DNA of 64,000 nucleotides, taken from the NCBI RefSeq assembly GCF_030811855.1, contig NZ_JAUSRN010000011.1:124001-188000 (forward strand), written 5' to 3'. The translations under genes were made by a program, and so were the position numbers. The stretch comes from Variovorax paradoxus (GTDB lineage: Bacteria; Pseudomonadota; Gammaproteobacteria; Burkholderiales; Burkholderiaceae_C). Numbering within the stretch: the stretch's first letter is position 1; the number at the start of each line of letters is the position of its first letter. Shown here in pieces: positions 6,350 to 63,116 of this stretch. The notes beneath the pieces were generated by a model that did no database searches, was not told where the DNA came from, and saw nothing but the letters and a program-made list of their open reading frames with translations.

Positions 6350-6711
6350 CCAAGAAGATGCCTGCTCATTCATTTGCACTGGCCGCTGCGAGCGCCGCGC
6401 TCCTGCTGCTGTCCGCCACTGCCGTTCACGCCCAGAGCGCCGACAACCCACCCAAGGTGCAGCCCGCGCACACGCTTCCGCCGCCTCCACGCGATAGCAA
6501 GGTCGTGAACAGCGTGCAGCGCGGCACCAACGCCGCGGGCCGCGGCATCGACCGCGCCGAAGACGCGACGCGGCGCGGTGTGAACAACGTGTCGGAAAAA
6601 GCCAGCCGGCCTGTTCGTCGGGTGGGCGAGTCGTTTGGCCGCAAGCTAGCGCCGGGCTCCAACGGGCGTGCTGCGCCACCGCCGGTCGGGCCGCAGGGCA
6701 GCGCGCCCTGA
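6346..6711 (+). CDS. Small secreted hypothetical protein
   Basis: A 121-residue protein with a clear signal peptide (basic start MTKKMPAHS, hydrophobic core, cleavage probably after AVHA near residue 28). The mature part is low-complexity, rich in Arg, Pro and Asn, with NAAGRGIDRAEDATRRG-like amphipathic stretches. No catalytic motif is visible and I do not recognise the family. It is translationally coupled to the adenosyltransferase by an ATGA overlap, which suggests co-expression rather than a shared biochemical role. Confidence 0.75.
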   Translation: MTKKMPAHSFALAAASAALLLLSATAVHAQSADNPPKVQPAHTLPPPPRDSKVVNSVQRGTNAAGRGIDRAEDATRRGVNNVSEKASRPVRRVGESFGRKLAPGSNGRAAPPPVGPQGSAP

Positions 6712-6740
6712 ACGAACTTTGTAAGGGTCAGACCAGGGGG

Positions 6741-6800
6741 CGAGCCGCCGCCGGGGGACATTCGCGGAGGGGAGTACCCGGTGTCCTGTGCACGCGCCCC
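6741..6800 (+). repeat. Dispersed structured repeat, family C, copy 1 (left-truncated)
   Basis: This stretch shares the core GGGGGACATTCGCGGAG and the arm GGGGAGTACCCGG with a copy at 61937-62032 (opposite strand), and the core with a copy at 62098-62190. It lacks the left half seen in the other copies. Weaker similarity to the 61880-61940 region continues to the downstream start codon (CCGAACACAAGC-AGCC-CAAC). It lies between the small secreted protein and the CYTH gene. Confidence 0.8.
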
Positions 6801-60871: not shown

Positions 60872-61879
60872 TCAGGGCCGCAGCACGACGCGGTCGGTGC
60901 TGCCCGAAAGCACCAGCTGGTAGGCGTCCATGGCTTCGTCGAGAGTGAAGTGCCGTGCCACGGGAAAGGGTTTGAGCGTGCCGCGCTCGAAGCCTTCGCG
61001 CATCGCATCGAGCTGTGCGGTGGAGGCGACGCAGTCCATCGCGAGCGAGTCGATGCCCACGAAGGTGTGCATGCCGCGGTAGAACGCGAAGATGTCGAAG
61101 GGCACGGCACGTTCGTGCGTGGCAATGAAGATCTGCGTCGCGCCCTTGGCCATCGCCTTGTTGGCGGCCTCGAAGTAGGCGCTGCCCACGGTGTTGTAGA
61201 CGATGTTCGCGCCGCGCCCGTCGGTGAGTTCACGCACCTGCGCGCCCACGTCGGCATGCTGGCGCGCATCGATCACATCGACAGGCCCGCTCGCAAAGCC
61301 TTCGAAGGGTCCGGCGCGGCGCTGTACCGCGATGACGCGCGCACCGGCCTGCGAGGCCAGCTGCACCGCCGCCTGGCCGACCTTGCCGTTGGCGCCGAGC
61401 ACCAGCACGGTCTGCCCGGCCTGCGGCATGCCGCTGCGCCGGAAGCCTTCATACGCGGTGACGAAGGGCACGCCCACTGCCCCGGCCTCGTCCATCGAGA
61501 TGCCCTGGGGCTTGGCGCGCAGCGCTGCTTCGGGCAGCACGAGGAAGCGTGCATGCGAACCGTCGCGCGTGATGCCGATGTCGCCGCCCGAGCCGTAGAC
61601 CTCGCGGCCGATCCATTCGACGGGACCACCCACCACGGTGCCCGCAAAGTCGCGCCCCGGGGTGCGCGGCCACACGGCCTGCGGCATGATGCCCAGGGTG
61701 GCTTTCACGTCGCTCGGGTTCACGGCTGCGGCCGCGACTTGCACCACGGCATGGCCGGGGGGGGCGGTGGGTTCTGGCTGCGATGCGGCTTCGAGTTGCA
61801 GCGCGTCGAGGTTGACGGCTTTTTCGTTTACGCGCAGTGCGCGGGAGGTGTTTGGGGTGTGCATTGGGGCGAGGCTCAT
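60872..61879 (-). CDS. Zinc-free alcohol dehydrogenase/quinone-oxidoreductase-like MDR protein
   Basis: A 335-residue medium-chain dehydrogenase. VVQVAAAAVNPSDVKATLG is the GroES-like N-terminus, PGRDFAGTV follows, and VLVLGANGKVGQAAVQLASQAGA is the NADPH-binding motif. No structural-zinc cysteine cluster is visible, which fits the quinone-reductase group. The ATG at 61879 is chosen by homology; a second ATG lies at 61864. The leader is a structured repeat (family C). Confidence 0.85.
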   Translation of the reverse strand: MSLAPMHTPNTSRALRVNEKAVNLDALQLEAASQPEPTAPPGHAVVQVAAAAVNPSDVKATLGIMPQAVWPRTPGRDFAGTVVGGPVEWIGREVYGSGGDIGITRDGSHARFLVLPEAALRAKPQGISMDEAGAVGVPFVTAYEGFRRSGMPQAGQTVLVLGANGKVGQAAVQLASQAGARVIAVQRRAGPFEGFASGPVDVIDARQHADVGAQVRELTDGRGANIVYNTVGSAYFEAANKAMAKGATQIFIATHERAVPFDIFAFYRGMHTFVGIDSLAMDCVASTAQLDAMREGFERGTLKPFPVARHFTLDEAMDAYQLVLSGSTDRVVLRP

Positions 61880-61936
61880 CTCAGTGTTCGACCGCGTGTT
61901 GTGTTGCGGCTCGCTTGTGTTCCGGTGTCGTTCGTT

Positions 61937-62032
61937 CAGGGCGCGTGCAAAGGCCACCGGGTACTCCCCTCCGCGAATGTCCCCCGCCTTCGGCTCCTCC
62001 TTTATTTCGCTGCGGGGAGCACCCGGCGCCCT
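61937..62032 (-). repeat. Dispersed structured repeat, family C, copy 2
   Basis: On the minus strand the arm CCGGGTGCTCCCC (62026-62014) is followed by CGCAGCGAAATAAAGGAGG, the core GGGGGACATTCGCGGAG and the other arm GGGGAGTACCCGG (61969-61957). The terminal arms pair over 13 bases with one mismatch. It overlaps the upstream region of the dehydrogenase gene. Confidence 0.85.
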
Positions 62033-62097
62033 GTGCACACCAAGCGCTGCGGTTGTTCCGCTCGATCAACGACCGCTCTTTGCAACGCTCGCGCTGG

Positions 62098-62190
62098 CGG
62101 GGTGCCTTGCGCAGCGAAATAAAGGAGGAGGCCGCAGGCCGGGGGACATTCGCGGAGCAAGGTACCCCGTCGGCGGGAGCGCGCCCTGAA
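62098..62190 (+). repeat. Dispersed structured repeat, family C, copy 3
   Basis: Arms CGGGGTGCCTTG (62098-62109) and CAAGGTACCCCG (62158-62169) enclose GCAGCGAAATAAAGGAGGAG and the core GGGGGACATTCGCGGAG. It faces copy 2 in inverted orientation. The arms differ from copy 2 but keep pairing. The 66 bases between the two copies hold nothing I recognise. Confidence 0.85.
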
Positions 62191-62225
62191 CAGCTCACCT
62201 CAAGAACAGAACAAGACGTCATCTC

Positions 62226-63116
62226 CTAGCTCCCCACACCAGGCAATGCCAGCATCGCGCGCGCCTCGCGCGGGTTGGCAATCTCGCCGCCCAGGCTCAG
62301 CAGGATGTCGCGTGCCTTCGCCACGAGTTGTGCGTTGCTTTCGGCAAGCACGCCTTTCTCGAGGTAGATGTTGTCTTCCATGCCCACGCGCACGTGGCCG
62401 CCCAGAAGCCACGCCTGCGCGACGATCGGAAACTCCATGCGGCCGATGCCGAAGGCGCTCCAGAAGGCACCGCGCGGCAGCATGTTGCGGGCATATAGCA
62501 GTGTCTCGGGCGTGGGCGCAAAGCCGTATTTCACGCCGAGCACGAAGGTCCACATCGCGGGGCCGTCGAGCGTGCCGTCCGCAATCAGGTCGAGCGCGAG
62601 GTTGATGTCGCCCGAATCGAAGATCTCCAACTCTGGCTTCACGCCCGCCTCGCGGATTACCTTGGCCATGCGGCGCACATTCTTCGGCGTGTTCATCACC
62701 ACGTCCGGGCCCGAGTTCATGGTGTTGAGATCGAGCGAGCACACGTCGGGCCTGATGAGCGCGATGTGCTCCACGCGCTTCTCCGGCGGCAGCAGCGTGG
62801 TGCCGGGCGCGGCGATCTTCGGATCGTCCTCGCTCGGTATGTAGCGCCCGCCGGGTCCGGTCGTAAGGTTGATGATCAGCTCGCGGTTTTTGCGGCGGAT
62901 GCGGTCGACCACCTCGCGGTAGAGCTCGACCTCCATCGACGGCTTTCCGGTTTCGGGATGGCGCACGTGGATGTGCACTTGCGCCGCGCCGGCTTCCGCG
63001 GCGGCCAGGCATTCGTCGGCGATCTGCACCGGCGTGATCGGCAGGTGCGGCGTCTGCTCGGGCTTCACGAGGTTGCCCGTGACGGCGCAGGTGATGAGGG
63101 TCTTGGCGGCGCTCAC
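62226..63116 (-). CDS. BKACE-family beta-keto acid cleavage enzyme (DUF849)
   Basis: A 296-residue Zn-dependent enzyme that condenses a beta-keto acid with acetyl-CoA and releases acetoacetate. The metal motif VHIHVRHPETGKP has both histidines (48 and 50), INLTTGPGG lies in the active site, and VRVGMEDNIYL supplies the Glu ligand. It differs from the first BKACE of the window (21710-22633), where one of these His is Ala. The SDR gene overlaps its start by four bases. Confidence 0.92.
   Translation of the reverse strand: MSAAKTLITCAVTGNLVKPEQTPHLPITPVQIADECLAAAEAGAAQVHIHVRHPETGKPSMEVELYREVVDRIRRKNRELIINLTTGPGGRYIPSEDDPKIAAPGTTLLPPEKRVEHIALIRPDVCSLDLNTMNSGPDVVMNTPKNVRRMAKVIREAGVKPELEIFDSGDINLALDLIADGTLDGPAMWTFVLGVKYGFAPTPETLLYARNMLPRGAFWSAFGIGRMEFPIVAQAWLLGGHVRVGMEDNIYLEKGVLAESNAQLVAKARDILLSLGGEIANPREARAMLALPGVGS

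Follow-up and report, generated by a model that had tools for sequence, protein, structure and literature searches.

Between two minus-strand genes of Variovorax paradoxus, one for a beta-keto acid cleavage enzyme (BKACE) and one for a zinc-type alcohol dehydrogenase, lies a short structured sequence, which raises the question of what kind of element it is and which of its features selection acts upon. The locus is part of a stretch of 64,000 nucleotides, here called the window (Table 1). A first-pass annotation, made from the letters of the window, had described two copies of a repeat whose outer arms differ while staying paired, and had proposed selection on a fold in RNA or single-stranded DNA rather than on sequence. 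The element spans 258 bp (61934-62191) and consists of two hairpins of ~95 nt, placed head to head and 47 nt apart, within 12-bp terminal inverted repeats. The 20-base sequence reported as shared between the copies, GCAGCGAAATAAAGGAGGAG, indeed occurs at exactly two sites in the window (61994-62013 on the minus strand and 62111-62130 on the plus strand), and at none in 100 shuffles. The outer arms are present and paired as described, and are not fully Watson-Crick, each arm pair containing one G·T wobble (GTGC/GTAC). The core, reported as identical, is not wholly so, since the apical hairpins differ (CCGAAGG versus GGCCGCAGGCC) and covary across the family. The ribosome-site-like AAGGAGG is present, but it lies in an internal loop, and we saw nothing that points to a ribosome-site function.

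Table 1. Positions of the element, its parts and the flanking genes in the window
Feature	Position	Strand	Evidence or remark
Left terminal inverted repeat GTTCAGGGCGCG	61934..61945	+	Flank conservation among the genome's copies starts at this end
Right terminal inverted repeat (CGCGCCCTGAAC on plus strand)	62180..62191	-	Flank conservation and exact-site counts
Hairpin unit A, core on minus strand, apical loop C-GAA-G	61945..62038	-	Covariance model R1, 89.3 bits, E 2.6e-20
Hairpin unit B, core on plus strand, apical loop C-GCA-G	62086..62181	+	Covariance model R1, 91.3 bits, E 8.3e-21
Linker, 47 nt, between the bases of both hairpins	62039..62085	.	In the family, length roughly kept, without general structure
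Unit A conserved core (AAATAAAGGAGG...GGGACATTC)	61975..62007	-	
Unit B conserved core	62117..62151	+	
Third copy, truncated	6689..6793	+	Model 15.1 bits, E 0.17; recognisable only from ~6751 (right half)
BKACE gene, transcriptionally upstream	62226..63116	-	PF05853, E 1.1e-99
Zinc-type alcohol dehydrogenase gene, transcriptionally downstream	60872..61888	-	PF00107, E 1.1e-13

Among the copies in this genome, conservation begins at the two ends of the element (23 left and 16 right flanks), with the exception of a weak conserved extension of ~20 nt on the A side. The 12-bp end occurs exactly at 30 sites in the genome, about 7 of which are chance sites in other sequence, versus 0 for the reversed pattern. 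At 7 of the exact-end sites, no related sequence was found within the 360 bases read at each, and no longer element with the same exact 12-bp ends was seen among the exact-end sites of this genome.

Both window units fold strongly (-40.9 kcal/mol, z -5.4, for the 75-nt plus-strand unit; -42.0 kcal/mol, z -5.2, for the 74-nt minus-strand unit). Covariation, which the annotation had drawn from two copies, cannot be established from two copies alone and is seen in the family-wide alignment. Units for the statistics were gathered by core sequence alone, so that the pairing of their arms is independent of the search. Because the shuffle control ignores relatedness among units, these were first thinned by arm identity, leaving an alignment of 50 units with arms at most 70% alike. 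In this alignment, 87.8% of cells pair versus 60.2% after shuffling, both-side changes occur in 37 of 42 pairs versus 33.3 (1 of 500 shuffles), and both-side-change cells number 516 versus 168 (0 of 500 shuffles). Sliding the partner by 1-3 columns left 138-173 both-side cells and destroyed the signal, and RNAalifold, run unguided, recovered the same main helices. Together, these observations support selection on the folded shape, and not just on the sequence. The annotation's "rather than on sequence" was half right, as the core sequence is conserved too, with an invariance that the search pattern partly imposed on the collected set. Furthermore, the arms covary in other genomes and no known transposon end was found; failure of the arms to covary, or a transposon end explaining the pairing, had been named beforehand as contrary outcomes.

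The limits of the fold can be read from the pairing at each position. Pairing is far above expectation at positions 7-29 from the core (258 unique units; 51 arm clusters at most 70% alike), drops at positions 30-32 (32, 28 and 24 of the 51 clusters, versus an expected 23, 20 and 19) and equals expectation from position 33 outward, which gives a basal helix of ~23-25 bp. Closer to the core, 39 of the 51 clusters have an A·G mismatch at position 4, and 39 have a G·A mismatch at position 6. The unit consists of this basal helix, of free sequence, followed by an A·G / C-G / G·A step and a GCGAA/TTCGC helix, and is topped by an internal loop of purines (AUAAAGGAGGA / GGGGGACA) and an apical stem. 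The apical stem is free in sequence, with covarying pairs, as well as in length, and it often ends in a C-GNA-G cap. In two model matches with other cores (L327 and L330), GCGGC with GCTGC or GCCGC replaces the usual inner helix.

Wobble pairs in the basal stems identify the strand that folds. After rejection of 12 of 317 units for poor arms, the 305 accepted units contain 683 G·T and 75 A·C cells at positions 7-29; keeping a single unit from each of 72 arm clusters, in which 1521 of 1656 cells are paired, gives 152 versus 43, and the 51-cluster set gives 127 versus 39. Since a neutral palindrome would equalise the two, the core-bearing strand is the folding strand. When the window units are folded as DNA, the core strand is ~10 kcal/mol more stable than its complement (-35.5 versus -25.0 kcal/mol for unit B, and -31.5 versus -22.1 kcal/mol for unit A).

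The letters of the internal loop are coupled across its two strands. When the search pattern placed no constraint on the middle letters of GGxGG and GGyGG, 150 listed rows, which come from other genera and do not include Variovorax, gave A/G 99, G/A 41, A/A 6, G/G 1 and C/G 3 (Fisher p 9e-29, the rows being mutually non-independent). Among the matches listed, 12 genomes from 8 genera have the G/A loop and 6 genomes from 5 genera have A/A; a separate fetched set (A/G 64, G/A 11, A/A 3, G/G 0) is biased, its pattern having largely fixed A and G. Such coupling would point to a non-Watson-Crick contact, either an A·G pair or a two-layer G-quartet, and the quartet is disfavoured as the sole form of the loop by a few units that hold only four Gs on its second strand. 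The apical loops, in 111 distinct sequences, comprise 53 GNA triloops, 5 GNRA, 2 UNCG and otherwise other small loops. C-GNA-G is an exceptionally stable mini-hairpin in DNA, and this makes us lean to single-stranded DNA as the folded species. Loop type and doublet geometry are the only two features that tip us towards DNA over RNA; GNA accounts for no more than about half of the distinct apical loops, and the tolerance of G·U fits RNA equally well.

The arrangement of the units in pairs is similarly regular. Taking cores within 400 bp of each other in fetched loci as close pairs, 108 of 111 distinct pairs are head to head ('-+', the 5' sides of the cores facing), and the core-to-core gap is 105-114 bp in 92 of these 108, in Variovorax, Pseudorhodoferax, Ramlibacter, Hydrogenophaga and others. 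Lysobacter pairs have core gaps of 97 and 127, and single units occur as well as pairs. Across 24 clusters from 96 doublets, there is no general hairpin in the linker (mean z -0.2) and no general closing stem at the outer ends (runs of 3.6 versus 3.0 shuffled, the highest shuffle being 3.9). Nor are terminal repeats like those of Variovorax a general feature of these clusters, other genera keeping the hairpins and not the ends. Individual loci show further variations: the linker of one doublet (L136) holds a strong palindrome of its own (z -3.2), a third hairpin that is not general to the family, and at another locus (L126, genome G182), two head-to-head doublets follow one another in tandem, the strict cores on one strand being separated by 336 bp.

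The family is dispersed through many bacteria of soil and water and is unevenly distributed. In this genome, the exact core was counted at 45 sites (21 forward and 24 reverse; 0 for the reversed control), and whole-element BLAST finds 20 places with at least 244 of 276 bases (L031-L050), in addition to partial ones. Among 101 genomes searched, the strict core is present in 43 of 61 of the genus, the window's own included, at 0 to 137 copies per genome, and in 0 of 40 of other families. A survey of 399 genomes of the family found the strict core in 38 (15 of 141 genera) and a relaxed core in 55 (23 of 141 genera), with 0 reversed-core controls among the matches listed. A scan of named genomes gave at least 118 stretches, and those that were folded give the same kind of hairpin. 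The carriers among 80 listed stretches are Variovorax, Ramlibacter, Rhodoferax, Hydrogenophaga, Pseudorhodoferax, Xylophilus, Lysobacter, Pseudoxanthomonas and Stagnimonas, the last three of which we take to belong to other orders than the remainder. The covariance model, run under strict filters that scored 10 candidates in each genome, has matches in 5 of 369 class-level genomes. The window's own genome is among the five, as is G848, whose match showed no core on inspection and is not counted as real. Low copy numbers outside Variovorax could reflect inheritance instead of movement.

Phage records gave no match to the repeat, and the plasmid matches are four records, every one from Variovorax. 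The single pattern match in viral contigs (L180), with 11 of 25 positions paired, was taken as chance; it was dropped before the 50-unit alignment and remains one of the 51 arm clusters. Six contigs of the window's own genome (C6, C9, C18, C20, C21 and C22) start within tens of bases of a core, from which we conclude that the repeat breaks assembly. The Rfam search that the annotation had suggested was run and gave no credible match for the element, with nothing above the gathering score and eukaryotic miRNA and snoRNA models only, the best being MIR918 (50.3 bits versus 268). A literature search confined to PMC papers found no description of the repeat, and the family is seemingly undescribed so far.

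Orthologous BKACE/dehydrogenase junctions, of which 30 were fetched out of 41 strong matches, carry the doublet in 10 cases (the window's included), remnants in 2 and nothing in 18, the two genes almost touching in many of the empty junctions. The remnants are at L158 (genome G029) and L174 (genome G010). At L158, both hairpins were deleted between short direct repeats, as slippage predicts, which suggests that the hairpins fold in vivo. The losses seen (L158 and L174) all resemble slippage or deletion, and no insertion was caught in the act. Copies at different places are up to 98% alike (L031 and L032) and differ in their right flanks. In the 18 copies of this genome for which both flanks were available, no target duplication was seen next to the 12-bp ends; the direct repeats that the flanks do contain proved to be mostly chance 6-8-mers. 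Farther out, a 7-bp TCATCTC repeat lies on both sides of the window site, and likewise at several of its orthologues, among them L152, L153, L157 and L163. Gene orientation, taken from a rough GC3 heuristic that scored 22 of 24 loci, places 16 sites between tandem genes, 6 between convergent and 0 between divergent ones.

A Y1 transposase gene is present in 58 of the 61 genus genomes, and yet no repeat unit lies within ~1.5 kb of Y1/RAYT at any of 69 fetched loci, which represent 30 of 59 genus places together with 21 of 21 and 18 of 18 further ones, at least one genome being included twice. Instead, the gene has a GGGGTCAGA or GGGTCAGA repeat as its neighbour at 27 of the 30 fetched genus loci, like the arrangement described for TIRYTs in excerpts of two papers (PMC3733652, PMC6006769). 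At these 27 loci, and in some other genera, the repeats that accompany Y1 are of the GGGGTCAGATTCC type and often also of the AATTGGGGACA type. The TIRYT-like Y1 genes (L091-L120 in the genus, and several of L302-L311) are nearly always one per genome, and the gene is perhaps domesticated. The truncated third copy in the window is of the unit A type, its left half having given way to other sequence, in which AAGGGTCAGACC is similar to the GGGGTCAG repeat found with the resident Y1 gene.

From the side of the repeat, a Y1 ORF was found at 1 of 238 core loci, 4.7 kb away. A Y1 search of the carriers G120 and G399 (both of completeness 100%, with 14 and 9 relaxed cores) gave no match, nor did 6 of 20 other carriers, some of these being draft bins. 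Y1/RAYT as an adjacent partner is not supported by the 69 loci and the Y1-free carriers. All-against-all BLAST of ORFs near cores at 52 loci revealed no shared transposase when the clusters were read; by eye, these looked like GC-rich ORFs, translations of the repeat and orthologous loci of one genus. None of the copies examined seems to encode the enzyme. Given the absence of Y1 near the units and in some carriers, the partner enzyme may have been lost, may belong to another family or may still have to be named.

The family thus described has a defined fold, folding strand, coupling of loop letters and doublet geometry. On balance, we lean slightly towards the element being a copy of a dispersed non-coding family of miniature mobile DNA, REPIN-like but built differently, that is recognised as single-stranded DNA by an enzyme in trans. 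The unit would be recognised as a single-stranded core strand, either during replication or as a cruciform; the trans-acting enzyme would read the internal loop and need the helix but not its letters; and the doublet would be the moving unit. The main rival is a function in RNA, which we consider rather unlikely: a transcript of the core strand, made downstream of genes, would fold into a hairpin bound by a protein or the ribosome, the head-to-head pair giving one correctly oriented copy whichever side is transcribed. The strong RNA fold of both window units, the favoured G·U-type wobbles, the AAGGAGG within the purine loop and the tandem or convergent, never divergent, setting of the 22 scored sites (by rough gene calls) would all suit such a role. 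It is harder to reconcile with the lack of an Rfam match at gathering score and with GNA triloops outnumbering GNRA, and an RNA role alone leaves unexplained both the near-constant opposite-strand spacing across genera and copy numbers as patchy as 0-137.

Mobilisation of a REP or TIR repeat by the resident Y1 (RAYT/TIRYT) transposase would account for inverted doublets as in REPINs, for the prevalence of Y1 in the genus and for the resemblance of GGGGACAT in the core to GGGGWSAS, the motif given for TIRYT inverted repeats in the published excerpts. We nevertheless judge it improbable, in view of the near-complete separation of units and Y1 genes in both directions of search, the different repeat that stands beside Y1, the carriers that gave no Y1 match and the GGAGGACA variants, which break the GGGG motif. 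The element might otherwise be an ordinary MITE of a DDE transposon, whose transposase cuts the 12-bp inverted ends and for which the hairpins are incidental cargo. The ends are perfect inverted repeats in the window copy and conserved in the genome, and the TCATCTC repeat lies farther out at the window site and several orthologues, but the absence of an observed target-site duplication next to the ends, the 7 exact-end sites devoid of related sequence and the retention of hairpins and not ends in other genera make this highly improbable. We give equally little credence to the absence of any selected function, long palindromes staying complementary through template switching during replication. 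Quasi-palindrome correction is an established mechanism, and hairpin loss by slippage is seen at L158; correction should, however, erase the A·G and G·A mismatches, the coupling of loop letters and the strand-biased excess of G·T relative to A·C, and under it the core would not persist across many genera.

Returning to recognition of a single strand in trans, the family could tentatively be placed in a class of its own among mobile or regulatory nucleic acids, a possibility that we hold to be real if the less probable outcome. The mark of such a class would be a conserved purine loop with a non-Watson-Crick contact, held by a helix whose length is set and whose sequence is free. A conserved partner other than RAYT would read this structured single strand across beta- and gammaproteobacterial lineages, and the units would be paired on opposite strands at a distance of about ten DNA turns. 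Short palindromic repeats usually owe their recognition to a conserved stem sequence. Here, the helices vary freely under strict pairing while a small internal loop is conserved across genera, so that the fold itself would be the heritable signal. The partner, once found, would reveal either a new route of single-stranded-DNA mobilisation or an RNA-binding system. The family is large, with up to 137 strict cores per genome, and suited to biochemistry, and the coupled loop letters offer a direct structural test.

ERIC, BOX and NEMIS-type repeats are small and intergenic, with strong folds, and are conserved along their length; they do not have the conserved-loop, free-helix design of the present family. 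ERIC and NEMIS are named as MITEs in an excerpt of PMC3733652. CGTC-tagged REPs, as described there, share the palindromic form, the predominance of head-to-head dimers and the lack of a dedicated transposase (PMC3733652), and differ in having 8-9-bp stems and the CGTC tag, as opposed to a ~25-bp stem and an internal-loop core. The TIR repeats of TIRYT Y1 transposases likewise form inverted-repeat families with many dimers and clusters, according to excerpts of the two papers (PMC3733652, PMC6006769), but they flank their own Y1 gene, which the present unit does not at the 69 fetched loci. The GGGGACAT of the core matches 7 of the 8 letters of the TIRYT motif GGGGWSAS in these excerpts (PMC3733652, PMC6006769), whereas the GGAGGACA and GGAGGACAT variants break its G run and GGAGG variants lose the motif. 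The closest likeness is with REPINs, or REP doublets with RAYT, which are also short, dispersed and intergenic, occur as inverted pairs with a spacer and form single-strand hairpins; compensatory changes are reported for REPs in an excerpt of PMC3116915. REPs are, however, genome-specific, tagged short sequences that often lie beside a RAYT, whereas here one internal-loop core is common to many genera, the helix sequence is free, no conserved foot tag was seen and no adjacent RAYT was found. The bases just beyond the foot of the hairpin (positions 32-45, 51 clusters) have no strong consensus, and so no GTAG or CGTC tag. In its behaviour the family is REPIN-like, and by two tested features, the tag and the adjacent RAYT, it stands outside the REPINs.
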